Positions 24,341 through 50,147 of a stretch of DNA of 64,000 nucleotides are shown here, one piece after another (the stretch's first letter is position 1; the number at the start of each line of letters is the position of its first letter). Position numbers and translations under genes: made by a program. The notes under the pieces were generated by a model. The model had not been told where the DNA came from and ran no database searches. It saw only the letters and a program-made list of their open reading frames with translations. Source of the stretch: Sphingomonadaceae bacterium. GTDB taxonomy: Bacteria > Pseudomonadota > Alphaproteobacteria > Sphingomonadales > Sphingomonadaceae. The stretch is taken from positions 186,001-250,000 of the forward strand of contig JAKFUU010000018.1 in NCBI GenBank assembly GCA_021732525.1, read 5' to 3'.

Positions 24341-25282
24341 CTAACGAGCCAGTGCCTTTTCGATGAGATATGCAAGCCGGACGCCAGCTTGACGTAAACG
24401 CTTTTCAACCACAGGGCCGTTAGATGAAATGTAATCCTGGTTGATTGAGATGCGCGGCTCGGTAGGTTTGGAGCATTGCGTATTTGACAGGTTCATAGTG
24501 CAATATAGCGTATTTTCCTTCAGAGTGATCGCGTAAGATTCTTGAGCCCATTGCCATGGCTGAGATGACGTCCATTGCATTTTTTCAGCAGAAGAAGTGA
24601 GCGGTACAAGGCGGTCCACCGCGCGGTATGTCACCGTAAATCCAGCCCAGTCTCTGCTCAGATTTGTACCCAACACAAACTTTTCGACCAAGCACTTGTC
24701 CCAGACTGAGTGCAGATTAGATTTTTGCCCTGAACCACAAAGTCCCTTTACTAGTAAATAATTCCCGCCCCGATCATCTGCGAAAGAGATGTGTAATGGC
24801 TGATGAATGTCGCCGACCCAATGCCCAAGACCGAGTAGCGCTTTTGCGCGTGCCTTTGCTGGCTTGGAACGATCCGAAAGGATGGCCAAATCCCGTTCGA
24901 TGCCCTGCAAAATACAGCTGTCATTCTGGGGACAATCAGCGTTGACGATTGATCGTTGATTGCGGGCGTAGTTGATGAAATGGTCGTCCGGATTTTTCCG
25001 CGGAAAGTCATCTTCTTCGACGCATCCATAATTGAAAGAGCTGTATTCGCCGTCTGCTTTCAAAAGAGCGTTGATATCCGCGCGAACGTCATCACTCACT
25101 GTGCGATACGCGTAATCGCACACCGTCAAATGACCAGCTTTGCTCCACGCTAGAGCTTCGCTAGGGTAAAGAGAAACCATGCTCCCGGCAATCAGCGCCA
25201 GCATCGGCAACATCGACAGTCGTCTAATATTCATCATGTTCTTCCTCCCAACAGAACTTAATAATATCATGCTCGATTTCAT
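24341..25282 (-). CDS. Secreted S1/P1-like nuclease
   Basis: Signal peptide then AWSKAGHLTVCDYAYRTVSDDVR...ALLGLGHWVGDIHQPLHISFADDRGGNYLLV...NLHSVWDKCLVE. Confidence 0.88.
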   Translation of the reverse strand: MKSSMILLSSVGRKNMMNIRRLSMLPMLALIAGSMVSLYPSEALAWSKAGHLTVCDYAYRTVSDDVRADINALLKADGEYSSFNYGCVEEDDFPRKNPDDHFINYARNQRSIVNADCPQNDSCILQGIERDLAILSDRSKPAKARAKALLGLGHWVGDIHQPLHISFADDRGGNYLLVKGLCGSGQKSNLHSVWDKCLVEKFVLGTNLSRDWAGFTVTYRAVDRLVPLTSSAEKMQWTSSQPWQWAQESYAITLKENTLYCTMNLSNTQCSKPTEPRISINQDYISSNGPVVEKRLRQAGVRLAYLIEKALAR

Positions 25283-25679: not shown

Positions 25680-26006
25680 ATGGCACGTCCATTGTCGTTA
25701 CAAATCTATGTATCGCGCGAGCTTGCCGGGCGCGTGCGAGCCGCCGCTGCTCGAAATGATCTGAGCGTCAGCGAATGGGTCCGCACGCTCGTCACATCGG
25801 CCTGCGATCAATCTGAAAATGCCGGTCAGCACGATAAGGTCATCGAGCGAATTCACCGCCAATCGGTCTTCATCATGGTGGGCCTGGATGCTCTATTGGC
25901 AGGGCATCCTGATCATGGTCTGCGAGACCGTGCTCACCAGGCTTATGGTCGTAAATGCAAGCAGCTTGGGATCACATCGAGCACATCGGAAGGATCTTCA
26001 ACATGA
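25680..26006 (+). CDS. Ribbon-helix-helix/relaxosome accessory-like protein
   Basis: RPLSLQIYVSRELAGRVRAAAARNDLSVSEWVRTLV, RHH-like; immediately upstream of traD. Confidence 0.6.
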   Translation: MARPLSLQIYVSRELAGRVRAAAARNDLSVSEWVRTLVTSACDQSENAGQHDKVIERIHRQSVFIMVGLDALLAGHPDHGLRDRAHQAYGRKCKQLGITSSTSEGSST

Positions 26007-28372
26007 AGCGGAACCTTCTTAATTTTACCCGCGGCAGCCAGTTGCTGGGCCACTTTGGTTTCATGTTTGCAGCCGGGTTGAAAGGTCCGATCATGGTCGC
26101 CGTCGCAACCATTGCAGGCATGACATATTGGATGCTGTCAGACGGGCTTTCCGATCACGACCGCTATCTCGTCTGGATGCGCATCTATGCCGCCATTTAT
26201 GGTTTTATGGAGCTCGATCCGCAGAAATTGATCGCGCTCGAAACAGGACTTGGCGGAACGATGCAGCTGCCTGTTTCAGAATTGGCATCCTTCCCGACGG
26301 TGGCGCGCGCATGGGACCAGATGGCCGAATTAATGGGTGCGGCTTTAACACGGTCTGCTTTGCTGTTGGTACCGGCACTGATCGCCTTTTATTGGTTTGC
26401 CGCGCGCTTCGGGAGCCGTTCGAAAGAACGCAAACATGAGCGCGGCGCCATGCTCGTCACACTGCATGAGCTGGTCGAGGAAGTGCGCGTTCACAACAAT
26501 AAGGAACGAGCTCGCGAGTTGACAGCAGCAATGGGAAGCAAGTGGCGACTGACCCTTCCGAGCGAGATCGCAAAAGTCTTTCCTTATCGCCCTTCGCATC
26601 TGGCGCAGGTCACCTATCCATGGCGACTTGAGCAAAGCCATGCGATGCTAATCGGTACAACCGGTATGGGGAAGACCGTGGCGCTTTCGGACATGCTGGA
26701 AGAAGCGCGCGTCAATGGCCAGCGCGCGGTTGTCTTTGACCTCACCGGTACTTTCATCGAGCATTTCTACGAGAGCGATCTAGACATTATATTGAACCCG
26801 CTCGATGCACGGTGTCCGCAATGGAGCGTGTTTGACGAGTGCCGTGACGAGGCAGAATTTTCGGCTGCTGCGGAAGCGTTGGTACCCCATGACGGCGGCG
26901 GCTCGGAACAATTCTGGGTACTCGCGGCGCGGCTGCTGTTCGTAGAAATGTGTCTCCGGTTGCGTGCCGATGGCATAGGCACCAACCAGGCATTGGCAAG
27001 CGAGTTGATGACCGCCGATCTCTCGGCGGTGCATAAATTGATGCGCGGTACGATTGCCGATCCACTGACCGCACCGGAAGCCGCGCGGATGGCGGAATCG
27101 ATCCGCGCGGTGTTCAATGCCAACGCCAAAGCGCTCAAACTTTTACCGCGCTCGGGTCCAAAATTCTCGGTCCGTGATTGGGTCGAAGCAGAAGACAGAC
27201 CGAGCTCGATCCTGTTCATATCAGCGCGCTATGTCGACATGAGCGTATGCTCGCAATTGCTCACCGTATGGCTCGATACCGCGATGAACACATTGATGGC
27301 AATGGACCGATCGGCCGACTTGCGCCTGTGGTTTTTCATAGATGAAATGGGCGCGCTTCACCGCCTGCCAGCGCTTGAAAAAGGCCTTCAGACGGCGCGT
27401 AATTTCGGCGGGGCCATCGTCACCGGCATCCATGCTTATGCCAAACTCAAAGAGGTTTACGGAGAGAATATGGCAATGACCTTGTCATCTCTCGCCCGCA
27501 CCAAACTGATCCTGGGAACCGCAGACCGCGAGACCGCAACCTGGTGCTCGGACTTCATTGGCCACCGTCAGGTCCGGGATATGGAAGAAGGCTATACTTA
27601 TGGGTACAATAATGCGCGCGATGCCGTTAGCTTGACGCCGCGCAAGAATATCGAACCCTTACTCTTGCCCGACCAATTGATGAACTTGCCGCGGCTTTCG
27701 GGTTATCTCAAATTCCCCGACGGCTTTCCTGCAGCTCCCGTCAAACTGTCACCCGTTACACGCAAACGCCGCGCAAAATCATTTATCAGGCGGGCGGAGG
27801 ATCGCGACTATAATATTGGCGGTGAACCATATCTGGTAGCACCACATGACCCAAAGCCCGGCAGCGATGACAGCAATACACACCCATCATCCAATGACGA
27901 CGGCGCTGGCAAACCGGTCGCTCCCAAACAAGGCGAACTGATACTCAAACAACCAGAAGATCAGCCCGACCGAAAGACGGGTAAAAAAGGTCGTAAGCCA
28001 GTAGCGAACGACCCTGAGAAAATGCGGCAGCAACTAGCCGACCGGCGAGGAGCGAAAAGCAAAAGCGCTGGTAGCAAAGCACCCATTGGGCATCAAACAA
28101 AGGCACAGGACTCGCCCCTAACGCGTTCCTCGATACCCTTGCCATCTGTTGTGCGTGCGGAGGCGGCAGAGGCCGAACAGTCCGCACTCGTTAGCCAGAC
28201 TACCACCGGAAAACTGGCAGGCTCGCAGGCGCAACACCAACTGGTGGAAAAGCCAGCACAGCAAGCAGCTAATCAAAATCGCACTGCAAATGATGCCCGG
28301 AAACTGATGCTGGAAGACGGCCTGAGCGAACGCGAGGCGGTCGACCTTGGCGACGTCGATATGGATATGTGA
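26003..28372 (+). CDS. traD: Type IV conjugative transfer coupling protein TraD
   Basis: Walker A MLIGTTGMGKTVALSDMLEEAR; LWFFIDEMGALHRLPALEKGLQTARNFGGAIVTGIHAYAKLKEVYGE. Confidence 0.92.
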   Translation: MKRNLLNFTRGSQLLGHFGFMFAAGLKGPIMVAVATIAGMTYWMLSDGLSDHDRYLVWMRIYAAIYGFMELDPQKLIALETGLGGTMQLPVSELASFPTVARAWDQMAELMGAALTRSALLLVPALIAFYWFAARFGSRSKERKHERGAMLVTLHELVEEVRVHNNKERARELTAAMGSKWRLTLPSEIAKVFPYRPSHLAQVTYPWRLEQSHAMLIGTTGMGKTVALSDMLEEARVNGQRAVVFDLTGTFIEHFYESDLDIILNPLDARCPQWSVFDECRDEAEFSAAAEALVPHDGGGSEQFWVLAARLLFVEMCLRLRADGIGTNQALASELMTADLSAVHKLMRGTIADPLTAPEAARMAESIRAVFNANAKALKLLPRSGPKFSVRDWVEAEDRPSSILFISARYVDMSVCSQLLTVWLDTAMNTLMAMDRSADLRLWFFIDEMGALHRLPALEKGLQTARNFGGAIVTGIHAYAKLKEVYGENMAMTLSSLARTKLILGTADRETATWCSDFIGHRQVRDMEEGYTYGYNNARDAVSLTPRKNIEPLLLPDQLMNLPRLSGYLKFPDGFPAAPVKLSPVTRKRRAKSFIRRAEDRDYNIGGEPYLVAPHDPKPGSDDSNTHPSSNDDGAGKPVAPKQGELILKQPEDQPDRKTGKKGRKPVANDPEKMRQQLADRRGAKSKSAGSKAPIGHQTKAQDSPLTRSSIPLPSVVRAEAAEAEQSALVSQTTTGKLAGSQAQHQLVEKPAQQAANQNRTANDARKLMLEDGLSEREAVDLGDVDMDM

Positions 28373-28407
28373 TGCCCGGCAGCGGTTCGAACAAAGGCTA
28401 TTGAGAT

Positions 28408-31338
28408 ATGCTTTCGGTTGCCAATGTCCGAACCGCAGGCGGCGCTGCCAATTATTTTGCAGCTGACAATTATTATACCCGCGCCGATGCCGACCGCTCG
28501 GGCGAGTGGGTTGGCAAAGGTGCTGAGATGCTTGGTCTCGATGGGCGGGTCGACGCCAAGCAGTTCGAGGCAATATTGAAAGGCTTGCTCCCCGACGGCA
28601 ATCGCGTCGGCAGTGAAGGCCGCGATCATAGACCAGGGACCGACCTGACCTTTTCAATGCCCAAAAGCTGGTCACTCATTGCGCTGGTTGGAGGTGATAA
28701 CCGCATCATCGATGCGTACCGCGACGCAGTCAAAGAGACGCTTCATTGGGCCGAAAAGAACTTGGCTGAGACCCGAATGGAGGTCAGAGGCCGCGAGAAA
28801 GTTGTGCCCACGGGTAACTTGCTCGTGGGCCTTTTCCAGCACGACACCAACCGCAACCAAGAACCCAATGCGCATTTCCATGCGGTTGTTGCCAATGTCA
28901 CCCAAGGCCCAGACGGTAAATGGCGTGCGCTGCGAAACGACAAATTATGGACACATAATACTTTGTTGAATGCGATGACGATGGCGCGTTTCAGACTATC
29001 GGTTGAAAAACTCGGATATGAAATTGGTGAGCAATCCAAGCACGGCAATTTTGAAGCAGCAGGCATTACGAAAGAGCAGCGCGATGCATTTAGTTCAAGG
29101 CGTGCCGAGATATTGAATGCGCTTGGCGGCATGGCCACCGGCGGGCTGGCAGCGCGCAACGCCGCCAACCTGATGACCCGGGTTCCCAAAGCAACGATTG
29201 AGGACCGCGCTGGTTTGGGACGTGCATGGGGCCAAAAAGCAGACGAAATGGGACTGAACGCTACTGCTTTGATAGCACGCGCTAACGCACGCGCAGCGTC
29301 GGATATTGGCGGCGTCCCGACCTTGAGCGACAAGGTCCAACAGCTCGCGGCGCACGGAAAAGAATGGGCAACGGCGATTGCTGAACGACTTGGCGTAAAG
29401 CAGGGAGACCAGCTGGTGCCACGCGACTTGAGCCGACGGTCACCAAGCGAAATTGCTGCAGTTCACGCTGTTGCGTCTGCAATCCGGCAATTGGGCGAGC
29501 GCGAGGCAGCCTTTGCCAAAACCGATATTTACAAAGCGGCGCTCGACTTTGGCTTGCCGACCGCCATGCCGCAAATCGAGCAACGCGTCGGTCAGCTGTT
29601 GCGCCAAGGCCAGCTGCTCAAGGGCAAAGGGGCGGACCGGCATTTGGTCACTACTGCCGATGCGCTTGCGGCAGAACAGCGGATATTAGCGTCGGTCGAT
29701 CAAGGCAGGGGAGCTGCGCCAGCAGTAGTTTCGACAGAGGTCGCCGGAGAACGGCTGCAGGCACTGTCGCAGCTTCAATATGGCATTACGCTCAATCCCG
29801 GTCAGGAAGGGGCAGGGCGGCTGATATTAAGTTCGCATAACCGCATCATTGCGGTTCAGGGTATTGCGGGCGCGGGCAAAAGCACATTGCTCAAACCGGT
29901 TGGCGATATATTGCGTGAAGAAGGCCGCAATGTTCTCGGGCTGGCAGTCCAGAATACGCTGGTCCAGATGCTCGAACGCGATACCGGCATTTCTTCGATG
30001 ACGGTAGCGCGGTTTATCAGGCAGCACGGTCCATTGCTCGACACCCGCGATCCGTTCAAACTCGCAGAAGCACGCTCAAACATGCGTGGCACCGTCGTGA
30101 TGCTGGACGAGGCCTCGATGGTCGGCAACGCCGACAAGGACAAGCTGCTTCGTCTTGCCAATCTCTTGGAGCTCGACCGTTTTGTCAGCATCGGTGACAA
30201 GAAACAGCTGGGCGCGGTCGATGCAGGCAAACCATTTGACGTGATGCAGCGGGCAGGCACCGAGACTGCGATCATGAATTTGAATATCCGTGCGCGTGAC
30301 CGCATGCTTCGCAATGCCCAATATGCAGCGCAAGGCGGCCAGATTGAAGTGGCACTGCGGCATCTGGGGCCACATGTGGTCGAGGTTCCTGAAAATGCTG
30401 CATTGGCGGCGGCAGCTGCATGGCTGTCGTTGGCGCCGCAAGAGCGCGGTAGCACTGCGATCTATGCGTCAGGCCGCGCGTTGCGGGGGCAGGTCAATGA
30501 AGCGGTGCAAACCGGACTCAAGGCTAATGGCGAATTGGGAGACAGGGTGTTTGCAACCGATACGCTCTCGCGGATTAACACTACCCGCGAAGAACTTCGC
30601 TACGCTAAGACCTATGTTCCCGGCATGGTGGTCGAGGTCGATCGGCGGCAACGCAGTCAGGCCATCGGGCAGGGGCGCTATGAAGTGGTCGCTGTCGATG
30701 CAGCGCGTGGACGGGTAACGCTTGAAAATGCGCGCGGCCGCCAATTCGAGTTGAAGCCAGGCCAGTTGCGGCCACAAGGCGAGGCCGATCCATTGCGGCT
30801 GTTCGAACTTAAGTCGCTCGAGTTATATGCAGGCGACCGCATCCGCTGGACGGATACCGATCATAAGCGCGGTCTGCTGAATGCCGATCAGGCGCAAATA
30901 TTGGATATTGGCGACAAGGGAATAGCGCTCAAAACGTCGGCTGGCATCGAACATCTGCTGAAACCGGATAATCCCATGTTGAAGCGGCTTGATCTGGCAT
31001 ATGCGCTGAATGCCCATATGGCACAGGGTCTGACCTCGGATCGCGGCATCGCTGTGATGGACAGCCGCGAGAAGAATCTCTCGAACCAGCAGACGTTTCT
31101 GGTGACGATTACCCGTCTACGTGATGGTCTGACCTTATATGTCGATAATGCCAGCAAGCTCGAGAAAGCGGTCGAACAGAACACGGGCTTGAAGCGCTCG
31201 GCATTGGAGACAACCGGTTTGCTGAAAGATGCGGCGGCTGCTGGCGTTGCCAAAGGCAAAACTAAAGAGCCGGCGCAGGGCCGCGAACCGCCCGAGCGCG
31301 ACCGCTCCATCGTCAAGCCGTTTGAAATAGGGATATGA
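28408..31338 (+). CDS. traI: MobF family relaxase/helicase TraI
   Basis: ANYFAADNYYTRAD; GTDLTFSMPKSWSLIALV; NAHFHAVVANVT; helicase VQGIAGAGKST, MLDEASMV. Confidence 0.93.
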   Translation: MLSVANVRTAGGAANYFAADNYYTRADADRSGEWVGKGAEMLGLDGRVDAKQFEAILKGLLPDGNRVGSEGRDHRPGTDLTFSMPKSWSLIALVGGDNRIIDAYRDAVKETLHWAEKNLAETRMEVRGREKVVPTGNLLVGLFQHDTNRNQEPNAHFHAVVANVTQGPDGKWRALRNDKLWTHNTLLNAMTMARFRLSVEKLGYEIGEQSKHGNFEAAGITKEQRDAFSSRRAEILNALGGMATGGLAARNAANLMTRVPKATIEDRAGLGRAWGQKADEMGLNATALIARANARAASDIGGVPTLSDKVQQLAAHGKEWATAIAERLGVKQGDQLVPRDLSRRSPSEIAAVHAVASAIRQLGEREAAFAKTDIYKAALDFGLPTAMPQIEQRVGQLLRQGQLLKGKGADRHLVTTADALAAEQRILASVDQGRGAAPAVVSTEVAGERLQALSQLQYGITLNPGQEGAGRLILSSHNRIIAVQGIAGAGKSTLLKPVGDILREEGRNVLGLAVQNTLVQMLERDTGISSMTVARFIRQHGPLLDTRDPFKLAEARSNMRGTVVMLDEASMVGNADKDKLLRLANLLELDRFVSIGDKKQLGAVDAGKPFDVMQRAGTETAIMNLNIRARDRMLRNAQYAAQGGQIEVALRHLGPHVVEVPENAALAAAAAWLSLAPQERGSTAIYASGRALRGQVNEAVQTGLKANGELGDRVFATDTLSRINTTREELRYAKTYVPGMVVEVDRRQRSQAIGQGRYEVVAVDAARGRVTLENARGRQFELKPGQLRPQGEADPLRLFELKSLELYAGDRIRWTDTDHKRGLLNADQAQILDIGDKGIALKTSAGIEHLLKPDNPMLKRLDLAYALNAHMAQGLTSDRGIAVMDSREKNLSNQQTFLVTITRLRDGLTLYVDNASKLEKAVEQNTGLKRSALETTGLLKDAAAAGVAKGKTKEPAQGREPPERDRSIVKPFEIGI

Positions 31339-32794: not shown

Positions 32795-34102
32795 ATGAAG
32801 TTGAAATCCTGTTTCGCGGTATTACTGCTCAGCACAACTGTACTTCCGACTGCTCCCGTCATCGCCAATGACATTGCCCCAAGTGCGCGCGTGTCGAGCG
32901 CGGTTCTGGTTCGCGAAGGACCATCTACGAATACTGCCATTATCGCACGCCTGAGGCCCGGCGAAACCGCAACCTTGGTTGACCAAATTAGCGGCTGGTA
33001 CATAATTCAGCTTGCCGATGGCACTCGTGGTTATGTCAGTAAGGCGTGGACCATCATTAAAGTCGATGCAGGTGACGAACCGCTGATTGCCGGGAGCCAC
33101 AAGATCCACGTGATTGATGTCGGAACGGGACTTGCCGTCTTCGTCGAAGGACCGGAATTCGCCCTGCTTTATGACGCTGGTAGCCAGGATGATCTCCACG
33201 GCGGCGAGGAAAACAGGGTCGTCTCTTACATACGTGCAGTCCGGCCAGACCTTTCGCGTATCGACCATCTCATTCTCAGTCATCCCCACAAGGACCACCT
33301 CCAGCTCATGCCTGCGGTCTTTGACACTTATCAGGTTCGCAACATCTGGGAGTCGGGTAGAGTGAATAAGACCGACGGTTATTGTCATTTTTTAAAGGCG
33401 GCCATGACCGAGCAAGGCGCGCGGTACCATGATGCCATCGCTTCCAATGCAACCCGCAGTGTTACGTTTACCGGAAGTGGTTGCAATGGGACCGTGAATG
33501 TTAGGCAAGCCGATATGATGAGCACTGTACCTGTTGAGCTTGGCGTTACAGCGAAGATGCAGTTCCTTTATCGCGATGCGCATCCCTACGCCGATCCAAA
33601 CGGTAACAGCGTCGTTGTTCGTCTGGATCTTGGAGGAAAAAGAATTTTGCTTGCAGGCGATGCAGAGGGAGGAGAGCGGGAATTGCCGTCTACGTCTCCT
33701 AGTCCACGCAGCATCGAAGCAAAGCTACTCGATTGCTGCGCCAGCGAATTGAAAGCCGATGTGCTTGTCGTCGGACACCATGGCAGCTTGACATCGTCGC
33801 GGGCGGAATTTCTCGATGCGGTGAATGCATCAATCTACGCAATATCGTCGGGTACATACGCCTACCGTAAAGTGCGCCTTCCCGATGCCGAAATTGTGGC
33901 GGAACTCGAAAGTCGTGGTCAAGTGCTTCGAACAGACCGAGGCGATGCCTTTCGTATCGCAGACGAATCCCGTGCGTGTGAGATGCGAGAACGGAAGATA
34001 GGTCCCGATGCAGACGAAACGCCCGGCGGATGCGACAATATAGTTATCACGATTGAGGAAAACAGCCCGATCACCGCAAAGTACTCGGGGCTAGTCGATT
34101 GA
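32795..34102 (+). CDS. Secreted SH3-domain metallo-beta-lactamase fold hydrolase (ComEC/Rec2-like MBL)
   Basis: Signal peptide; SH3b SSAVLVREGPSTNTAIIARLRPGETATLVDQISGWYIIQLADGTRGYV; MBL LILSHPHKDHLQ, VVGHHGSLTSS; RBS AGGAGG. Confidence 0.85.
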   Translation: MKLKSCFAVLLLSTTVLPTAPVIANDIAPSARVSSAVLVREGPSTNTAIIARLRPGETATLVDQISGWYIIQLADGTRGYVSKAWTIIKVDAGDEPLIAGSHKIHVIDVGTGLAVFVEGPEFALLYDAGSQDDLHGGEENRVVSYIRAVRPDLSRIDHLILSHPHKDHLQLMPAVFDTYQVRNIWESGRVNKTDGYCHFLKAAMTEQGARYHDAIASNATRSVTFTGSGCNGTVNVRQADMMSTVPVELGVTAKMQFLYRDAHPYADPNGNSVVVRLDLGGKRILLAGDAEGGERELPSTSPSPRSIEAKLLDCCASELKADVLVVGHHGSLTSSRAEFLDAVNASIYAISSGTYAYRKVRLPDAEIVAELESRGQVLRTDRGDAFRIADESRACEMRERKIGPDADETPGGCDNIVITIEENSPITAKYSGLVD

Positions 34103-34130: not shown

Positions 34131-35414
34131 ATGATGGTTCGGACGGCAGCGTCGACGAAAACAGAACGTGCAACTACGCGCAATAATTCGCTAAAGGGAC
34201 GCAACATTGTCATCCTCTGCGATGGCACTGGCAACGAACTCGGCGGAGCACTGTCACAGCACGTTCGCGACATCCGAATTTCCAATGTGCTGAAGCTGTT
34301 TCGTATAGCCCAAAAGGGTCAGAGGCAGCTCGTATATTATTCACAGGGTATAGGGACGATTGGACGACCTAATTGGCTTATGCGGTTCCGCCAGAAAACA
34401 GCTGGCGTCATCGGTTTAGTGACTGGATACGGTCTCGATGACAATGTTCTTGGCGCATACCGCTTCCTTGTAGAAAATTGGGAAGAGGGAGATCGCATTT
34501 ACCTCTTCGGGTTCAGTCGCGGCGCGTGGACCGTGCGGGTTCTCGCGGGACTGCTGCACCTTGTTGGACTTTTACGCCCTTCGCAGCTCAATCTCTGCGA
34601 CAATGCGCTGGCGACCTATAAGCGAGCAGCTACGGACAATGCGCTACCGATAGCGTGGCATTTTGCGCGCGTGATGGGTACACGCTTCCCATCGATACAC
34701 TTCATGGGCTGCTGGGACACCGTTGCCTCGGTCATCGTCCCCCGATCTGACCGCGTGTGGGTTCCTAGCCTCGAAACCTTACCCTTCACAAAGGCTAATC
34801 CGTCGGTAAAAGTCTTCCGGCACGCGCTTGCATTAGATGAGCGACGGCGGATGTTTCGCGTAGCAGAGTGGGAGCAACCGCAAGATCATGTACCGAACCG
34901 CTTCGAACCAGACGACGTTGTTGGACAGGATATCGAGCAGCGATGGTTTCCTGGTGTCCATTCTGATATTGGCGGTGGTTATGCCGAAAATGAGAGTGCA
35001 CTCTCGAAGATTCCGCTGATCTGGATGATAGAGGCGGCGGTGAAGTCGGGATTGATCATAACGCAATCCAACCTTCATCAACTAGCATATGGAAAGCCGA
35101 AGCCGAACGCGCCGCAAACAGGTCCAAACGCGCAGCACGAATATGTCGAACCCAGCGCGCTTGGGCCAATCCACAAGTCGCTTGGGTTTGGCTGGATGCC
35201 TCTCGAGGTCATGCCGAAACGCACAAAATATATCGAAACGAGAAGTGCGAAGTTCTTTGGCTTTTATATTCCGTTGGCCGAGGCGCGCCGTCTTCGTCGC
35301 GAACATGTGATCGACGCCGCCGTTTATTGTCGCCAATCCCGCTTAAAAACATATAGGCCGAAGGCAGAAATCCCTCCAGCGTCTCCGGGCACGTCAATCT
35401 GCGCGTACGATTAA
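34131..35414 (+). CDS. DUF2235 domain protein (Tle1-like alpha/beta hydrolase)
   Basis: NIVILCDGTGNELGG...SNVLKLFRI...YYSQGIGTIG...DRIYLFGFSRGAWTVRVLAGLLHLVGLL...WFPGVHSDIGGGY. Confidence 0.9.
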   Translation: MMVRTAASTKTERATTRNNSLKGRNIVILCDGTGNELGGALSQHVRDIRISNVLKLFRIAQKGQRQLVYYSQGIGTIGRPNWLMRFRQKTAGVIGLVTGYGLDDNVLGAYRFLVENWEEGDRIYLFGFSRGAWTVRVLAGLLHLVGLLRPSQLNLCDNALATYKRAATDNALPIAWHFARVMGTRFPSIHFMGCWDTVASVIVPRSDRVWVPSLETLPFTKANPSVKVFRHALALDERRRMFRVAEWEQPQDHVPNRFEPDDVVGQDIEQRWFPGVHSDIGGGYAENESALSKIPLIWMIEAAVKSGLIITQSNLHQLAYGKPKPNAPQTGPNAQHEYVEPSALGPIHKSLGFGWMPLEVMPKRTKYIETRSAKFFGFYIPLAEARRLRREHVIDAAVYCRQSRLKTYRPKAEIPPASPGTSICAYD

Positions 35415-35522: not shown

Positions 35523-37322
35523 ATGACATTTGATCTTGCCCAATTGCGGCCTTTTATAGCGCCTGTATTTCTCGAGGCAGTGGGCCCACTACGAGATGCT
35601 GCCTTGCTGACGCGACTGATGAACGACGTGAAAGTCATCGCAAAGCGAAATTCTTCAAGCACGACGCGAAGAATACTATTCACCAGCCCAGTCGATGAAA
35701 CCGAAAGCCATTTTTATCAGGCTATTATCTACCGGGAGAAAACCACACCTGCCTGGTCAACGAGGTCGCCGGTTGAAGATGAGGGGCATGAATTGATCAT
35801 TATTTCCGTGCGCGGAAAAATTGCCACGATCTGTGCGTCCGATGGTTCGATGCGAGACCGACTGGTTAAGGACATCAAATCTTGTCGCAGGATATCACGC
35901 GAGCGCTTAAATGCGTTTGTTGGCGGGGCAGCCAAGGCATTGTGGCTGAATGGTGTCCATACACCAACCGCATCCAAAGCCGACACGAAGGCGATTACTG
36001 GGACAGCTCTGGAATATGCGCTCGATCCGCTTGGCGATCAAACCTACTACTATAATGCAGTCCGTAGCGTGCCCGAAATTGTTGGCTTACTGAAGGCAGG
36101 CAAGAAAGCCGTGATTGGAGCAGCGCCAGGCGGAGCGAGGATTTGGGTGCGTCGTGCTGAAAGCTGGGATGACTTCAAAAGGGTGATGGCAATATTGATT
36201 GATCATGCTGTTAATGGAGTAATCGCCGACAACCCCTTTTCATCGCTATCCCAACCGATCGATAACGGAGTCGATATCAAGGATGCTTACGGTCTTTCGG
36301 TAGCACCCGGAGAACTTCTGTCCGAAGACACGGTCGCTGAAGCTGCATACGAAATCGCTCGGCGCTGGGCTTTCGATGCCGATTTTGAAGTAACCGCCCT
36401 TGTCGGTCCTTCCTTGAGCGCGGTTGTCAGCCTCGACAGTGACGCAATAGGTACAGCGGAAATTTCAGTGACGATAGACGACGGCATCGCCAGTACGGCT
36501 GTAGCTTGGACCAATGTGGTGGCTGGAAAAGTCGCGCAGCGCGCGGAATGCGAAAGCTTTCTCGCCAATGCGGAACGCATCAAGATCTACTATGACAGCG
36601 GCCATACCATAGCCCAGGGCCGATGTTATGTGGGTGGCTATTCTGACCAGCCCTTCGACTGGGATTTCCGCTCCTTTGCCGGCTATGAAGTAAATAGGGA
36701 AAAGCCCGAAGTGCCTGCGGGTTCGACGCTTGCGGCAGCAATAGGAGAAAATAACGAGAAATCACTATTTGCTTATGTTTTAGAAAAAATGTTCGTCGAC
36801 GATCAGGGATCAGCAAAGGGTTGGCTTGCAAGCGATGACGGTTCAATGGAACTGGCCGATTTTATCCATATCGACCCAAATGATCGCGTTGTCACGCTGG
36901 TGCATGTGAAGGCATCCAGTTGGGACACGCCTGATCGGGGAGCGAAGCCCGGCGACTATGAACTTGTCGTTGCGCAAGCCATCAAGAATTTGCGCCATCT
37001 TGATCGGCGCAATCTTCACGACGAGATGAAAAAGGGCAAAGGCAAGAAGATCGGTAGCGCGGTCTGGCTAGACGGCGTGCGGCAGGCAAACCGAGATGGT
37101 TTTCTGGCCGCGGCTAAAAAACTTCCACGCAGCCATCGGACGGTCTTGGTCGTCCTTCAGCCTTCTGTTACCAAGATGGAAAGGGACAAATGTCTCGCCG
37201 ACAAAGCGCCACCCACTTATGCTATGCGCATGCGGCAAATCGATACACTTCTATTATCCGCCCGAGCATCGGCGCTCGCTTGCGGGGCCTCGTTTATAGG
37301 AATTGGCGATCTCGGTACGTGA
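35523..37322 (+). CDS. Uncharacterised 599-aa protein with putative C-terminal PD-(D/E)XK-like nuclease region
   Basis: Long clean ORF; ASDDGSMELADFIHIDPNDRVVTLVHVKASS...GDYELVVAQAIKNLRHLD. Nuclease assignment is inference. Confidence 0.6.
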   Translation: MTFDLAQLRPFIAPVFLEAVGPLRDAALLTRLMNDVKVIAKRNSSSTTRRILFTSPVDETESHFYQAIIYREKTTPAWSTRSPVEDEGHELIIISVRGKIATICASDGSMRDRLVKDIKSCRRISRERLNAFVGGAAKALWLNGVHTPTASKADTKAITGTALEYALDPLGDQTYYYNAVRSVPEIVGLLKAGKKAVIGAAPGGARIWVRRAESWDDFKRVMAILIDHAVNGVIADNPFSSLSQPIDNGVDIKDAYGLSVAPGELLSEDTVAEAAYEIARRWAFDADFEVTALVGPSLSAVVSLDSDAIGTAEISVTIDDGIASTAVAWTNVVAGKVAQRAECESFLANAERIKIYYDSGHTIAQGRCYVGGYSDQPFDWDFRSFAGYEVNREKPEVPAGSTLAAAIGENNEKSLFAYVLEKMFVDDQGSAKGWLASDDGSMELADFIHIDPNDRVVTLVHVKASSWDTPDRGAKPGDYELVVAQAIKNLRHLDRRNLHDEMKKGKGKKIGSAVWLDGVRQANRDGFLAAAKKLPRSHRTVLVVLQPSVTKMERDKCLADKAPPTYAMRMRQIDTLLLSARASALACGASFIGIGDLGT

Positions 37323-37581: not shown

Positions 37582-37890
37582 TTAAGGGAAGGTTGGTTTG
37601 ATCTGCACGCACGCTTTGTGCGAAAACTTCTCCGTTGATCCATCGATCCGGTTCACCCAAAAGCATTTGGTTCCGAAATCCGCGCTGCGCACGCTAAACC
37701 CGGCAACGCCACAACCGAACTTTTCCTTGCCTTCGGGATGGTGCGCGAGGGCCGCCAGCAAGATCTCTCCATCAACGGCGCTGACCTTGTCGCCAACATC
37801 ATATTTCTGCAAAATGGCGTTCAGGTGGGCCACTGCATCGCCCTTTTTGGCGAAGTGCAAGTTGCCATAACTGATCGGTTGTGCGGGCAT
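37582..37890 (-). CDS. DUF3223 domain small protein
   Basis: LHFAKKGDAVAHLNAILQKYDVGDKVSAVDGEILLAALAHHPEGKEKFGCGVAGFSVRSADFGTKCFWVNRIDGSTEKFSHKACV; RBS AGGAGG; 22 bp after hamB. Confidence 0.78.
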   Translation of the reverse strand: MPAQPISYGNLHFAKKGDAVAHLNAILQKYDVGDKVSAVDGEILLAALAHHPEGKEKFGCGVAGFSVRSADFGTKCFWVNRIDGSTEKFSHKACVQIKPTFP

Positions 37891-37912
37891 ACATCCTCCT
37901 TTTTCCGACGTT

Positions 37913-40525
37913 TTAAGGCGTAGTGATTGCAATTTCGTCATCGCTGTCCGGCAGCAACTTCTCGCGAATTTCGCGAAGGATGATTGCCGGAATGGCCATC
38001 ATTTCGAACTGGCTCTCGCGATCGACAGCCCAGGCAAGACAACCTTCCTTGGTAAGATCGTCCCTTGCGATCTTCTCATAGAGCGTAACAGCGCTCATTC
38101 TCGATAGACCCAGCTCCATGAGCGATAAAAGTGTCACCGACGAGATGCCAAATTCGAGCTGCGTTCCGATATCGAGACCGGACGCGATCTGGTCTTCCCG
38201 ACCCGTTTCGCGAAGGTAAAGGTTTAGGATGTCCATATAGGCGGCGAAGTATTTGGGCGCGCGGAACCGCGCCGTTTGTTCCACGAGTTCCATGGTGTGC
38301 CGAATGAGCACCGGCAACTTGAACGGCTTGTTGTGATCCCGGTGATATTGGATATTACGTCGGATCATTGCTGCGAGCGAAAAGCCCTTCAGCCATTGCA
38401 CGACAATCAAAGCGTGGAGCGGGATTAGCCCTTGCGGAAGAAATGCCGGATAGAGGTGTTCGTTGATCCGCCGCATGATGGTGACGAAGCGGTCGTAGCT
38501 ATCCTGACTCTCGACCGCAGCAGGCAACAGGTTATCGATCTCACCCTTATAGCCGCGAAACGCTTCGAGCAGCCGCTGGAGACCGAGTGCGCTGACGCCG
38601 GGATGGCGGTCGGCGATTTCAGGCCGGATTTCGATTTGTGCGGCAATGGTTGCGAGGCTTTCTTCCAGTTTTTCGATCATCGCCGGACTGTGCCTTTTGG
38701 CGAGACCGGCTTGCGCGATCGAACCAAGGCGCAGGTAAGTCGCGAGCAGATAGGCACCGACCTGCTCGTATTTTCCGACATCTTCGAGTTCCGCTACCGG
38801 TGTCGTTGCACGCCTATCGAGATAGGCTGCCATGCCGTCTCCTAAATCCAGGACGGCATCGCTTTCCCGACGGATGGGATAGCGTGAGCGCGCGGGCACC
38901 CCAGTTGGCCAGGCGGCGCTATCCTGTGGGTCGATGCAAACAATGTTGCCTTGGAATTCATTGCCCCAGCGACCGGCCCGGCCCGCTAGATTCCAGAAAT
39001 CATGCGGCTCCATCGGATGCCCAATGCCTTTGCGCGGCCCTCGTACAACAATGGTGCGGCAGGAAAGATTGACGCCTTCAATCAGCGTCGAGGTGCATAC
39101 CAGGAACCTTATCTTGCTGTGTCGAAACAAGCGCTCGACCTCCAGCCTGATCAGCGAGGGCATGTTGCCATAATGAAAGGCTACCCCCCGCTCGACGAGC
39201 GATGCCAGCGTAAAATTGGGATGAACACCTTTTCGTGCCAAGTCGGCGAGCTCGCTTAACTCGGTGTCAGGCTCGGAAAGAGCCGGAATAAGCTGGCTAA
39301 TGAGATCGGCGACTTCTTCGGCTTCTCCGGCGCCGTTCGCATAAACTAGCGTGCCGCCACGCTCGCCAACCGCTGCCGATATGAAGGCGAGCTTTTTGCG
39401 GAGTGTACCTGGCGAGCTGCCAAGCTGCAGAAGGCCGACGGGCAATGATGCTCCGGTCTGGCGGACTGACAAATTCCATTGCTTTGGCTTTCCCGGGACT
39501 TGCTCAGCCAGGATGAGATTTTGTAGTACGGTGGGAAAATCGCTGTCGACCGCTACGGTGCTCGCCGACTTAGGAGCGTCGGCGAGCAACTCCTCGGGAT
39601 TCTGGGTCGCGGGACTGATGAATACCACTTTAAGCTGGGAATTGCCCCGTTCCAATCGCTCGACAGCATCCTGCAGAATGACCCCGCGTTGACTGTCTCC
39701 GATCTTGTGCGCCTCGTCGACGATAAGGAGGTCTACTCCAGCGGCGTCACCCAAAGCGTTTGCTAGCAGGTGCAGGCGCTCTTGGGTGAAAACGAGAATT
39801 AGTTTCAGCCCACCTGCACGGGCAGCATCGTATTTCTCGCGCAGGGGCAGCGACGAGACCGCTATTCCGCTGTTCTTTCCGAGCAGCGATGCGAGTTCAG
39901 CTTCAATCTCCGAAACCAGCGCCCGCGTCGGTGCCAAGTATACCGCGACGCGTGCATCGGTCGATCTTAGATGATCGACTAGCCATTGCAGGACCAAGAA
40001 GGTCTTGCCCGAAGCCGTAGGAGCGGAAGCGGAAAGCCAGTTATGACTGTTGGCATCGTTCCAGAACTGCTGCTGAAAGTTGTTGACCGAAAGCCACCGA
40101 CCGTTCGATTCTACTAAGACAGAATGATCCACCTGGCGACGTTGCATTTCCATGCGTAGCGCCATGCCGAGCCGCGTTTCGAGGCCCGACTTCAGCAGTT
40201 CGCGATCATGGGCGAGGCCGACGGCCCGAAAGTTCGACAGTTTGTCGAGGAGCACCGCACCGGCGTCCTTTACTGGCTGAGTGTTGTCCATCGTTACTGC
40301 GGCAGTGGCAATCCTTAGTGCCGTTTCCTGCTCGGGGCGCAGCGCCGAACGCGCTAATATGCTTCCTGCGAGCAGAAGCCTCGTCCAGTCGATTTCAGGG
40401 AACCCACCGCCGGGATCGGGCGCGAGATTATCGAGTTCGGTCCGCACAGTAAGGCGCGTCACAGCGTCAACATCCGACCGGACGCCGTCGCTCATCAACC
40501 AAGCATTGAGGGCCGTCAACGTCAT
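37913..40525 (-). CDS. hamB: Hachiman helicase HamB
   Basis: SAPTASGKTFLVLQWLVDHL, LLIVDEAHKIGDSQRG, helicase C FLVCTSTLIEGVNLSCRTIVVRGPRKG...NLAGRAGRWG; overlaps hamA by 4 bp. Confidence 0.88.
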   Translation of the reverse strand: MTLTALNAWLMSDGVRSDVDAVTRLTVRTELDNLAPDPGGGFPEIDWTRLLLAGSILARSALRPEQETALRIATAAVTMDNTQPVKDAGAVLLDKLSNFRAVGLAHDRELLKSGLETRLGMALRMEMQRRQVDHSVLVESNGRWLSVNNFQQQFWNDANSHNWLSASAPTASGKTFLVLQWLVDHLRSTDARVAVYLAPTRALVSEIEAELASLLGKNSGIAVSSLPLREKYDAARAGGLKLILVFTQERLHLLANALGDAAGVDLLIVDEAHKIGDSQRGVILQDAVERLERGNSQLKVVFISPATQNPEELLADAPKSASTVAVDSDFPTVLQNLILAEQVPGKPKQWNLSVRQTGASLPVGLLQLGSSPGTLRKKLAFISAAVGERGGTLVYANGAGEAEEVADLISQLIPALSEPDTELSELADLARKGVHPNFTLASLVERGVAFHYGNMPSLIRLEVERLFRHSKIRFLVCTSTLIEGVNLSCRTIVVRGPRKGIGHPMEPHDFWNLAGRAGRWGNEFQGNIVCIDPQDSAAWPTGVPARSRYPIRRESDAVLDLGDGMAAYLDRRATTPVAELEDVGKYEQVGAYLLATYLRLGSIAQAGLAKRHSPAMIEKLEESLATIAAQIEIRPEIADRHPGVSALGLQRLLEAFRGYKGEIDNLLPAAVESQDSYDRFVTIMRRINEHLYPAFLPQGLIPLHALIVVQWLKGFSLAAMIRRNIQYHRDHNKPFKLPVLIRHTMELVEQTARFRAPKYFAAYMDILNLYLRETGREDQIASGLDIGTQLEFGISSVTLLSLMELGLSRMSAVTLYEKIARDDLTKEGCLAWAVDRESQFEMMAIPAIILREIREKLLPDSDDEIAITTP

Positions 40526-41514
40526 GGTTTCATGCCCATTGCCCTTAGAAAGGCGTCTCGGAATGCTTCGGCTGAAGGCAGGGGGATGCAAAAGAATTCA
40601 ATCTCAATCTGGTCGAGCTTTTCGGCTGCAATCCGGTCCCCGAGGCTCTTTTTCCAGCTTTCCAACCCGGTGCGGGTCGCGGCAATGATGTCGTCCGCCA
40701 CGGCCTTGACATCGTCGCCGGGATAAAAGTCGGCGTCGAAGCCGACCAGCGCCACCCCACAATACTGGACTCGTTTAGACTGTATCGCGCTCTTATCGAA
40801 GTAGCGCCGCAGCGCGTCGGTTAAATGGGGATTGTTCAAATCCGCCTTGTCGCTCAGCAATACAAGGTCGCGCTCGCGGTCGGCTCCTTCATGCTCGGGT
40901 TCGATCAAGAATGGAGCAAGGGATGCAAGGCAATCGCGAATGGCATCAGACGCGGATTTATAGACTTTTGATTCGCCCCAATACAGCTTGAGAAGCCCGT
41001 CGTCGCTGATGCCTGCATATACGCCATCCGCACCGTGATAGTGCATCCGCGTGTCGGTCTTCAGGTCCATCTTGCAGAGAATCTGCGGAAGCTGAAGAAA
41101 GCGCTCTGCGAGGAGGAATAGCAGCATTTCGCCGCCTTCGCCGGTCTTGGCTAGGTCCGTGAAGGAACGGCGCGCCTCTTCAAGCAAACCGCCGACAGCT
41201 TCTGTGCTGTTGTATTTCGTGTCACGCGCCTTGGCCTGCGCCAGCTTCGACCGCGGTATTGCGTAATCGGCCACGGCGTTGCGCATGAATTCCGCAAGGC
41301 GTTGTGGCTGAACTCGGCCGTTACCGTCTACAGTCAAACAGTGGCAGTGAATCTTGATCTGGTGACCGTCGATGACCACATCGCGCTCTACCAGTTCGAG
41401 ATGAACCTCAAGCGCTTCGGGGTTACCGGTCAGCGCTGACGTCAAATCGGATGCGGTTATACTTGACAGATTGCCCCCCCTTTCACCTCTCACTCCCAAC
41501 CTAGCAGGCCTCAT
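40522..41514 (-). CDS. hamA: Hachiman HamA (DUF1837)
   Basis: GEMLLFLLAERFLQLPQILCKMDLKTDTRMHYHGADGVYAGISDDGLLKLYWGESKVYKSASDAI, DUF1837 signature. Start uncertain (ATG 41514; track uses TTG 41595). Confidence 0.88.
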   Translation of the reverse strand: MRPARLGVRGERGGNLSSITASDLTSALTGNPEALEVHLELVERDVVIDGHQIKIHCHCLTVDGNGRVQPQRLAEFMRNAVADYAIPRSKLAQAKARDTKYNSTEAVGGLLEEARRSFTDLAKTGEGGEMLLFLLAERFLQLPQILCKMDLKTDTRMHYHGADGVYAGISDDGLLKLYWGESKVYKSASDAIRDCLASLAPFLIEPEHEGADRERDLVLLSDKADLNNPHLTDALRRYFDKSAIQSKRVQYCGVALVGFDADFYPGDDVKAVADDIIAATRTGLESWKKSLGDRIAAEKLDQIEIEFFCIPLPSAEAFRDAFLRAMGMKP

Positions 41515-41860
41515 CTTAGCTAAATCGAAAATTCTTGTCGTTCGATATTTGCAGTTATTAGCCGAGTCTAATACTCGTCCAAATACTTTGTCCAAGCGGA
41601 CCGACTGGCTGCCTCACTGTACCTTTTCAGGCAGTTCGCAACGTGCAGCTCAGCGGCTATGCGCACTAGCGTGTTCTTCATACGATCGATGTCTGCCTTT
41701 GGCTCGCCGGTCAGCGCAATGAACGACCGAGTTTAGGGCGCGTAGCTGTCATCGCATAATGGTGTACCTTGCGGCAGCTCTTCGCAAATGGCGCTTCAAA
41801 GCCTGCCGTTCCGGATCATCCAACGTTACGGTCATTCGGATCAACGATGTTGTCATCGAA

Positions 41861-45132: not shown

Positions 45133-47844
45133 CTATTTCCATTCCTTAACGCGATCTGCCGACTCCTCACTTGCGCCCCTGGCATCTTGAGTCACATCGC
45201 CCAAATACCTCCGCACTGTTTCAATCCGCGCTTTGCCCGATTGATGCGCCTGGCCAACTTCATCGCGAATGTTCTCGTTATCGATTTCCGGGCTGATCGA
45301 CTCTCGATTTCCACCCACACCTACAGCTGATTTTCCCCGGACATCGGAAGCGCTGGCAACATTTGGCCGCACAACCGGCTGACCAGGAGCAAGGACGAGT
45401 TGATCTTGAATGTCGCTGCGCAACTCATCGGCATAGCCGTCGATAAACCGTGCTTGGAGTGCTTGTCCTTGCGCGCCCAACTGGAAGTCGATGTCGTCAA
45501 AGCGGACATTTCCATAATAATCACGGTTGCGCTCGATTTCGCCCAGACCCCATTCGCGGTAAGCCTGCGATAGATTGAGGCTGCCATTGGCGCTGTTGCC
45601 TTCGAAGAACGACGCTTGTTGCTCCAGCCGGTTTGCGATTTCTTCAGACCTTCGGGCTTCGCGGGTATAGCTTTGCGCCTCGGTCAGCGAGGCGTTCATG
45701 CCGCTGGCACTGGTCGACACCGAGGAACTGCTTGACGAACTGACCGTCCGAACAAATCCATCGCGCGTGCTCGACCAGTTGCGGCTGTCCGATATCTGCT
45801 GGAGGCTACCCATGATGCGCGAACGGTCTTCTGACGCAATGCCAATATCGCTGTCGGTCCACGACTGATTTCGGCCGCCTTTCACACCAATGCTCGCTTT
45901 GCCGGACCCTATCGACCCAGCCATCCCAGCGCCCGCTTCCCCATTGAGAAACCATGAGGTCGTGATATCGTCGGCGGCTCTGCGGGACAGGCCGTAGGTG
46001 CGTTGCAGATTGCTGGATGCCTGATCGACTTCGTTGAACGCGGTTTGCACGCTGTCGGAATTGTTCTGTCCTGTCGCGGTCTCAAAGCTACTGCCTTTGC
46101 TGATCTGGTTTCTGAGCTCGCGAAACTGGGTGACCGCGCTCGAAGTCGATTGCTGCGCAAGGTTCGAGAAGGTTTCGCTGTTCCCGCGGCTGTGGCTCGC
46201 CATATTGGACAGCCGCGATGTGAACTCCTGACCGAGCGTTGGCGTGAATGGATAGTTCGATGTCGGCAGCTGATCATAGCTGCCCTCGGCAAAGCTTGTC
46301 GAAAGCGTTCCGCTGCCCGAATAGCCCTTCGTCTGAGCCGCACCATAAGTGAATGAGGGTGCCGTGGTTCCTTGGGCAAATTGCCGTGTCATCACGCTCG
46401 AATTTTCAAAGCTGGTATTGCCGAGCGAGACATTGCCGGTGCTGGCTTCGCGCGCGGCTTCTTCGGCCGCATTCTGGCTCGGGTTCAAATAAGAAGTAGC
46501 ATGGTGCGAGATTGCCATCGCTCCCTTAGCGACGCCGCCCGCCAAAAAGGGGACAGATGCAATCAGATAGCCAGCAAGTATTCCGATATCGCTGTTGACG
46601 TCGGCCATACCGGTAAAGCTTGCGAGCGTCATGCCGCCGGTTCCGGTAGCCGCCGTCATATCGGCGGCTCCCTTGAACATCAGCATCATATGCAGGATGA
46701 CGAACAGCGGTCCCCATGCAGCCAGATAGAAAAAACCGGTCACATAGCCTTTGAGCGCGAGAGGTCCGGTCTTGGGCATCAGGAATAATGGAAACAGCAC
46801 CGGAAAAAGTGCGTAAAACAACACAGTAAGAACGACATTTAAGAGCGGTACCCATTTCATGGCGTTGTTCGCAATCGAGCTATAAGTGCGCTCGGTCTGG
46901 ATATCTGCGCGCGTTTGCGCATAGACATCGACATTGCTCGCCCCGCTCGATCCGCCAAAGCCATGCATCGCCTGGCTCATCGCGTTGATAGTCAGTGTCT
47001 GTTTGAAGATGTCGGTGGCGTTGGTCGAGACGCCGGTCAAATATTGATAGGCAACGGGTAGATCTGCAAACAACTTGGCTTTGGCAAGGGCTGCCGTCTG
47101 GTTCGGATAGAGCTGGCGCCCGAACACCTGTCCCATGCCGTCGATCAAGCCGGTCCAATGGGTATTGAGGTTGGCGTAGGCTTCACGGCAGGTGACGATA
47201 CTGGCACTGACCGTGCGGCTGCTCGCGTCGCGTGTCAGGAACTTTTGCGCGCGCGCCTGGCTACCGGGCGCGATATTCGTCCAGATGTCGTTGCTATCGG
47301 CGAGTTGCTTCATCGAATAGCGGCCGAGCAGAACGTCATAAAAAACGCATTGCCGGAAATGCTCGTCGAGATTGGCGGCAAATTCAGGGTCAGAAATGCG
47401 CAAGCTCCGCGTCGCGTCGTAGAGCCGTGAGCCATAGATCATGCCGTTTTTGGTGTAATTGAGATCGCCGGGCAGGCCAAACACGACCTCGGATGCGTCG
47501 GTCAAATAATCGCCAATCTGGCTGGTGAAGCTGGCCATGAGGGCAAGGCCCAAAGGCACGTTACTGATTTGCGCAGGCGCAAGGCTTGGGTTCAACCGGT
47601 CGGTGACATGCACATCCAGTCTTGGGACCATGAGGCAGGTGTACATGAGGGTCGCACCCAGAAACCAGTTGATCCACGCGCGCCAGTCCTGGTTGAAAGC
47701 AAGGGTCACTGCAGACAGAGCCAGGCCCATAACCATCACGACTTGAAGCAGGCTCTTATAGCCGCCGTCGCCGGTCCAGGCAGCAACGGCCTGAAAGACA
47801 TTGACCAGATAATCGCCGCCACCAACCGTATAGATTTCGACCAT
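45133..47844 (-). CDS. traG: Conjugal transfer mating-pair stabilisation protein TraG
   Basis: N-terminal MVEIYTVGGGDYLVNVFQAVAAWTGDGGYKSLLQVVMVMGLAL; F-type operon position. Confidence 0.9.
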   Translation of the reverse strand: MVEIYTVGGGDYLVNVFQAVAAWTGDGGYKSLLQVVMVMGLALSAVTLAFNQDWRAWINWFLGATLMYTCLMVPRLDVHVTDRLNPSLAPAQISNVPLGLALMASFTSQIGDYLTDASEVVFGLPGDLNYTKNGMIYGSRLYDATRSLRISDPEFAANLDEHFRQCVFYDVLLGRYSMKQLADSNDIWTNIAPGSQARAQKFLTRDASSRTVSASIVTCREAYANLNTHWTGLIDGMGQVFGRQLYPNQTAALAKAKLFADLPVAYQYLTGVSTNATDIFKQTLTINAMSQAMHGFGGSSGASNVDVYAQTRADIQTERTYSSIANNAMKWVPLLNVVLTVLFYALFPVLFPLFLMPKTGPLALKGYVTGFFYLAAWGPLFVILHMMLMFKGAADMTAATGTGGMTLASFTGMADVNSDIGILAGYLIASVPFLAGGVAKGAMAISHHATSYLNPSQNAAEEAAREASTGNVSLGNTSFENSSVMTRQFAQGTTAPSFTYGAAQTKGYSGSGTLSTSFAEGSYDQLPTSNYPFTPTLGQEFTSRLSNMASHSRGNSETFSNLAQQSTSSAVTQFRELRNQISKGSSFETATGQNNSDSVQTAFNEVDQASSNLQRTYGLSRRAADDITTSWFLNGEAGAGMAGSIGSGKASIGVKGGRNQSWTDSDIGIASEDRSRIMGSLQQISDSRNWSSTRDGFVRTVSSSSSSSVSTSASGMNASLTEAQSYTREARRSEEIANRLEQQASFFEGNSANGSLNLSQAYREWGLGEIERNRDYYGNVRFDDIDFQLGAQGQALQARFIDGYADELRSDIQDQLVLAPGQPVVRPNVASASDVRGKSAVGVGGNRESISPEIDNENIRDEVGQAHQSGKARIETVRRYLGDVTQDARGASEESADRVKEWK

Positions 47845-47866
47845 GAAGCTGCTCCTTAGGTTTTGC

Positions 47867-49303: not shown

Positions 49304-50147
49304 GTCCGGCTTCCTTTGTGGTGAGGAGGTAAATGCGGTCGAGCAGTTCATCTGCCGACATGACGCCGTATCCAATGGGAATGGCGCGGCGCAGCTCTGC
49401 GTCCCACAGCACGACTGCGGGTGTTACTTTCGGCTCAAGCCCCATCTTGCTGCGCTGCGTGGTCTCGACGGTGTAGTTGGGGAAATGGCGTGACGGGCCG
49501 CCGTCGGTTGAAATCGCGCGGACGGTGATCGACCAGGAACCGGCAACCGATTGGACGATCGGCGACATGACCTCGCAGGCACCGCAACTTTGGGCGAAGA
49601 AATAAAAGAGCCCGTAACGACGCCCGAGATTTTGCATAACGTTGTTACGTTCGCTGGTGCGCGCGTCCTGCCATTGCCGCTTGCCCAAGGTCGAGACCGG
49701 ACGCTGCAATGTGTAATCCAAATCGGGATCCTGCCAGATCGCCCTCTGCCAGACATCACTGAACAGAGAAGCTCTATCGAGCTGCGCCCGCTGGAAGCGC
49801 ACATAAGCAGTTACGTTCTCGTTGGTAGGTTCGAGAATGGCACGTGCCTTGAGTTCGCGCAGCTCGGCGGTAATCGCATCGAGCCGGCTTACTGCATTTG
49901 GTGGCGGCGCTTGCGGTTCTGCCTTTGGCGCGGCTTTCGGCTTTTCGCAGTAGAACCAATAGCCAAGCTTGCGGTTCTGGCAGTAGAAGACATCACTGCT
50001 TGCTGTGCTTTCGGCAACAGGTTTGTCTGCTGTCTGGCCAAGCGCTAGCTGTGGACTGGCGCACTTTATGCAAATTGCGATTGCGAATATGGTTCGGCTC
50101 AAGCGCGGGTAGCTTTGTGACCGGCGTTCAATTGCCATGGGTTGCAT
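49293..50147 (-). CDS. traF: Conjugal transfer protein TraF
   Basis: FQRAQLDRASLFSDVWQRAIWQDPDLDYTLQRPVS; thioredoxin-like FFFAQSCGACEVMSPIVQ. Confidence 0.9.
   Translation of the reverse strand: MQPMAIERRSQSYPRLSRTIFAIAICIKCASPQLALGQTADKPVAESTASSDVFYCQNRKLGYWFYCEKPKAAPKAEPQAPPPNAVSRLDAITAELRELKARAILEPTNENVTAYVRFQRAQLDRASLFSDVWQRAIWQDPDLDYTLQRPVSTLGKRQWQDARTSERNNVMQNLGRRYGLFYFFAQSCGACEVMSPIVQSVAGSWSITVRAISTDGGPSRHFPNYTVETTQRSKMGLEPKVTPAVVLWDAELRRAIPIGYGVMSADELLDRIYLLTTKEAGRDF

Follow-up and report, generated by a model that had tools for sequence, protein, structure and literature searches.

The reading frame at positions 35523-37322 of the window (the whole stretch of 64 000 nucleotides from a Sphingomonadaceae bacterium that was analysed) encodes a protein, here called Q, that is probably a mobile defence nuclease which targets DNA and acts autonomously. 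In the fuller form of this reading, which we hold with slightly better than even confidence, Q is a stand-alone defence protein composed of an RdgC/RexA-like module and a divergent PD-(D/E)XK nuclease, and it is kin to PDC-S71 and to a family of ResIII helicases.

The Q gene and its setting

The frame runs from an ATG start to a TGA stop through 599 codons with no internal stops; ∼7e-5 open stretches of this length would be expected by chance over six frames at the stop frequency of the window. A reading made earlier from the sequence alone had reported a long clean frame, lying between a DUF2235/MBL pair and Hachiman; both points are borne out, and the C-terminal motif that it quoted was found letter for letter. 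The features of the locus are as follows (the boundary between the two parts of Q, residues 384/385, is approximate).

32795..34102 (+): protein with SH3 and metallo-beta-lactamase (MBL) domains, upstream of Q
34131..35414 (+): DUF2235 (PF09994, T6SS_Tle1-like_cat) lipase-like protein, possible optional partner of Q
35523..37322 (+): Q, 599 aa, RdgC/RexA-like N-terminal part and HxK nuclease-like C-terminal domain
35523..36674 (+): N-terminal part of Q, residues 1-384, probable DNA-binding/clamp region, RdgC-like by structure
36675..37319 (+): C-terminal domain of Q, residues 385-599, PD-(D/E)XK-like core predicted in the model
36834..36914 (+): putative active site, codons 438-464, DDG-x2-E443-x-A-D446 ... 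H461-x-K463
36966..36992 (+): invariant V-x2-Q485-x2-KN helix, codons 482-490
37582..37941 (−): Hachiman HamC, a neighbour separate from Q
37913..40591 (−): Hachiman HamB, a neighbour separate from Q
40522..41595 (−): Hachiman HamA, a neighbour separate from Q

The Hachiman system downstream is complete (HamC, HamB, HamA) and is encoded on the strand opposite to Q; no homology of Q to HamA or HamB was found. Genes for a TrwB/TraD-type coupling protein and a TrwC relaxase were seen at 25955-31338 (+), and TraG, TraH and TraF at 45133-50270 (−); the MBL, DUF2235, Q and Hachiman genes are cargo that an F-type conjugative element carries within its transfer region. An S1/P1 nuclease gene lies just beyond this region (24341-25282, −). 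The MBL gene is not conserved near Q at other loci.

Comparison of Q with its closest homologue (74% identical) gave codon differences at positions 1/2/3 in proportions 0.23/0.12/0.65, a profile that reads as that of a selected protein. This closest relative, from the same genus (L019:9983-11788), is interrupted by an in-frame stop in the N-terminal part and is therefore probably a pseudogene.

That Q belongs to no named family, as the sequence-only reading had it, is a fair statement: neither Q nor its homologues fall under any Pfam, PHROGs or NCBIfam model, and there is a weak PADLOC match to PDC-S71. A Pycsar cyclase match and single NCBIfam matches, each to one Q member, were isolated and were disregarded.

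Homologues and sister branches

Homologues of Q were found as 19 matches in plasmid records and at 44 loci in GTDB contigs; judging by the record titles, the hosts are Alpha-, Beta- and Gammaproteobacteria, Actinomycetota, Planctomycetota, Verrucomicrobiota and Chloroflexota. A search of 50,697 phage records and two scans of IMG/VR viral contigs detected no homologue. The distribution is sparse and Q is rare, unlike the pattern of a repair gene; a full-length match was present in one of 395 alphaproteobacterial species genomes, the window's own, and a clear match in 2 of 101 relatives. In an alignment of 37 intact homologues residues D439, E443, D446, H461, K463, Q485, K488 and N489 are invariant, the motif DDG-x2-E-x-AD ... 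HxK ... Q-x2-KN is essentially so, and HxK is fixed, ExK never taking its place.

The PADLOC model of PDC-S71 (PDLC05077) recognises 34 of 38 Q proteins, with E=3.8e-13 at best; on the window's Q the match is weak (E=1.8e-7) and covers just ∼100 C-terminal residues, 390-503. Profile-profile comparison by HHalign extended the relationship over 536 columns (99% probability, E 2.6e-18), and the N-terminal part of Q alone scored 80-84%. Excluded from the PDC-S71 profile was one sequence, L097, which proved to be of the Q type; the match is 100% with it and 99% without. Common to the two groups are length (589-600 aa), organization as a single gene, collinearity along the whole length and the site, CDD..EwAD...HxK...Q..KN in PDC-S71. 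On the other hand, identity in the profile alignment is very low (about 10%), and the Q family is set apart by DDG-x2-E and by conserved GW, EKP and SLF motifs. We read Q, from these comparisons, as a sister family of PDC-S71 rather than as a member of it.

In PADLOC-DB the status of PDC-S71 is that of a computational phage defence candidate; a literature search found no paper naming it. Since PADLOC lists this sister as a candidate, the kind of protein was already predicted, and what is added here is the Q branch, together with its link to ResIII helicases and its RdgC/RexA-like part.

A further branch was seen in ResIII-type SF2 helicases, 1127-1140 aa long, in which a module of the Q or PDC-S71 type, with HxK, makes up the C-terminal half behind the helicase domains (L039:11768-15190, L112:3411-6815, L111:3646-7026 and L011:3-2603); these helicases are apparently a separate defence candidate. 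A domain scan of three of them found ResIII and DEAD in all three and Helicase_C in two. The profile match of Q to the helicases covers their residues 583-1109 (97.9%, E 4.8e-13); taken separately, the C-terminal part of Q matches the helicase module at 96.5% and its N-terminal part at 37-56% (E 1e-4 to 4e-4). None of the control profiles (reversed, column-shuffled or unrelated) scored above 0.7%. The module in L111 is of the PDC-S71 type; in L039, L112 and L011 the site reads DDG..E.AD...HCK...Q..K, with HxK as in Q. The L039 and L011 helicases are located a few genes away from a Q gene.

Q, PDC-S71 and the helicases' C-terminal ∼560 residues are three branches of one superfamily. As Q aligns along the C-terminal half of the helicases and has no counterpart of their ∼550-residue helicase part, it is best described, judging by the alignments, as the helicase-free, stand-alone form of a module also found fused to a helicase. 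Its homology over the whole length to PDC-S71 and to this C-terminal half makes it look like a restriction-type helicase-nuclease existing without the motor. The sequence-only reading, correct about the position of Q in the window, had missed its kinship with PDC-S71 and the SF2 helicases as well as the RdgC/RexA-like character of its N-terminal two thirds.

Predicted structure and activity

The C-terminal 215 residues modelled alone by AlphaFold2 (pLDDT 93.8, pTM 0.91) gave the order alpha, beta, beta, beta, alpha, ..., beta (H31-39, E50-53, E63-67, E72-78, H92-110, ... E155-166 in model numbering), i.e. the alpha-beta-beta-beta-alpha-beta core of the PD-(D/E)XK superfamily is present in the predicted model. 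In it D446 is situated just before strand 2, H461-V-K463 ends strand 3 and Q485 is in the next helix. The invariant D446 and K463 are correctly placed in the model for a PD-(D/E)XK site, with the invariant H461 at the D/E position; H for E in (D/E)XK is unusual.

Searches of the PDB gave no match below E=0.001, for either full-length Q or the C-terminal domain; the best one for the C-terminal model (E 0.098) was a dehydrogenase. Among the 50 PDB matches listed for this domain the highest TM-scores by query were those of Avs3 (0.35), the CDI toxin CdiA-CT (0.29) and Hachiman (0.28), all weak and read post hoc; we take these three to be PD-(D/E)XK-type proteins. For full-length Q the best nuclease among the matches listed was the Shedu nuclease domain, at a non-significant Foldseek E=0.17. 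A local alignment to Shedu SduA, with 0.3% HHalign probability, pairs D446, HVK and Q485 with D, EIK and Q of Shedu, respectively, H standing where the Shedu site has E; the SduA_C domain (PF14082) was not found in Q by Pfam. Compared by HHalign with Shedu, Mrr and HamA, the C-terminal domain scored at background, in a test that is powerless as Shedu versus Mrr fails too.

It is the topology and the invariant residues, not a fold match, on which we assign the C-terminal domain as a divergent, predicted PD-(D/E)XK-like nuclease. A PD-(D/E)XK variant with HxK had been proposed from the letters alone, with AlphaFold and Foldseek named as the check. The proposal gains from the fixation of HxK in intact homologues, from its recurrence in PDC-S71 and the helicases, and from the predicted strand order, which brings D446, HVK463 and Q485 to the D, (D/E)XK and Q places; it found no backing in the search against solved nucleases or in the Shedu/Mrr/HamA profile comparison.

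AlphaFold2 modelling of the full Q (from an alignment of 38 sequences; pLDDT 90.5, pTM 0.80) shows a two-part protein. When Foldseek was run with this model against a viral library, RdgC accounted for five of the first six matches (E down to 7e-6), with low TM-scores by target (0.34-0.40). These alignments span 318-349 columns and the C-terminal domain has just 215 residues; because of this, we assign the matched region mainly to the N-terminal part. RdgC was not among the 50 PDB matches listed for the full model; the third of them was a yeast centromere CCAN chain, 8ovw_N (probability 0.77, E 0.065), which we take to be Chl4 by the usual naming. RexA, RdgC, IML3 and CHL4 have one common fold (PMC11077077); hence, the two libraries point to the same fold family. 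At the level of sequence Q showed no relation to RdgC (PF04381; HHalign ≤0.3%, no Pfam match), and for lambda RexA sequence-based fold prediction failed as well (PMC11077077). The N-terminal part, which is collinear with the post-helicase region of the ResIII helicases, thus appears to resemble the RdgC/RexA DNA-binding fold in its predicted structure. RdgC forms ring dimers, and both RexA and RdgC bind DNA non-specifically (PMC11077077); they have no domain corresponding to the nuclease-like one of Q.

One could propose the following mode of action. The N-terminal ∼385 residues would probably dimerise and grip DNA without sequence specificity, perhaps as a dimeric ring, and the C-terminal ∼215 residues would cut it at a metal site with E443, D446 and K463, where H461 takes the place of the usual acid. 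Most likely, Q would either bind and cut DNA in some unusual state that incoming phage or plasmid DNA gives rise to, or cut DNA in general and so cause abortive infection.

The nearest serious rival to an autonomous nuclease is a DNA-binding protein that does not cut. The C-terminal domain would then be a degenerate or repurposed PD-(D/E)XK fold, or another enzyme turned to binding, and Q would clamp phage DNA and block its processing as a DNA-binding protein like RdgC and RexA, both of which act without a nuclease domain (PMC11077077). The replacement of the catalytic E by H in every Q member and the failure of the C-terminal model to match a nuclease significantly would fit this idea; still, D, E, H, K and Q stay unchanged from phylum to phylum, as the residues of a catalytic site do, and ResIII helicases carry this site in fused form. 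We consider a non-cutting clamp rather improbable, though it is the best of the alternatives.

More tentatively, and with clearly less than even confidence, the nuclease reading may be carried further: Q could be a single-gene immune nuclease, an RdgC/RexA-type clamp joined to a PD-(D/E)XK core with Glu permanently changed to His (HxK), that arose by loss of a restriction-type helicase motor or as a precursor of such helicases. If true, this would tie together the PADLOC orphan PDC-S71, a ResIII helicase family and the RdgC/RexA fold, which were previously unlinked in the sources we read, and it would establish HxK as a nuclease site that can do without the acidic residue of (D/E)XK.

Genomic neighbourhood and alternative roles

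We surveyed 55 Q loci, forming 38 sequence clusters at 80% identity, and counted neighbours within 7 genes of Q. A CD-NTase was present at 13 loci (6 of the 38 clusters), SAVED at 12 (4 clusters) and a HamB-like helicase at 7 (4-5 clusters, the fifth, L021, counted without an HMM check); 10 clusters had at least one of the three, and 28 had no CBASS or Hachiman gene. PADLOC and Pfam, run on 115 neighbours of Q, confirmed the oligonucleotide cyclases, the SAVED-HNH effectors and HamB. HamA was found in 8 of 249 species genomes; from this, a Hachiman gene would be expected within ∼15 kb of a random gene in ∼1 case in 10,000, as against 4-5 of 38 for Q, so that by this rough estimate Hachiman stands beside Q about a thousand times more often than by chance. 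The defence-gene setting suggested earlier for the single locus holds for the homologues, which are enriched beside defence genes.

Some gene orders bring to mind an accessory effector of the neighbouring CBASS systems, or a protein acting solely with the DUF2235 lipase. Agrobacterium plasmids carry CD-NTase, a small ORF, HNH-SAVED, DUF2235 and Q in this order, and in Roseibium Q is followed by CD-NTase, ThiF, Mov34 and SAVED; DUF2235 directly adjoins Q at 17 of the 55 loci. The linkage is far from obligate, however, as it should be for a CBASS effector: CD-NTase is found in merely 6 of the 38 clusters and DUF2235 in 8, and Pfam found no sensor domain (SAVED, CARF) in Q. In a Vibrio (L052) an array of five attC sites was identified by repeats and nhmmer, and Q is the sole gene between two of them; this single-gene integron cassette argues that Q works as one gene, compact and transferable. 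We therefore regard an accessory role as unlikely, somewhat more so than the non-cutting clamp. A literature search on DUF2235 with CBASS found nothing usable.

DUF2235 of the same subfamily was also seen in the same CBASS locus without Q, whose place is taken there by an AAA-type ATPase and a hypothetical protein (L118:4016-7559), and, followed by an ATPase and a hypothetical protein, outside that CBASS locus (L120:3995-7347). Both cases speak against the accessory role; from them it follows that DUF2235 is an optional partner of Q, and it may be a component that different systems share, each with a partner of its own.

Still less probable is a general role for Q in mobile elements or in DNA repair, its presence in islands being incidental. 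The resemblance of its N-terminal fold to the recombination protein RdgC and its place between F-type transfer genes in the window could be cited for this view; the roughly estimated thousandfold excess of Hachiman neighbours and the single full-length match among 395 alphaproteobacterial species genomes, unlike a repair gene, go against it.

As DUF2235 belongs to the Tle1-like T6SS phospholipase family (PF09994) and may adjoin Q, one could speculate that it is a secreted lipase effector with Q as its immunity protein; with Q lacking DUF2235 in 30 of 38 clusters, an invariant nuclease-like site in Q, and no VgrG or PAAR gene noticed beside it, we consider this very improbable.

Among the other defence neighbours, DarT/macro-domain pairs were seen after Q in several Agrobacterium and Rhizobium plasmids (L009, L012, L013, L018).
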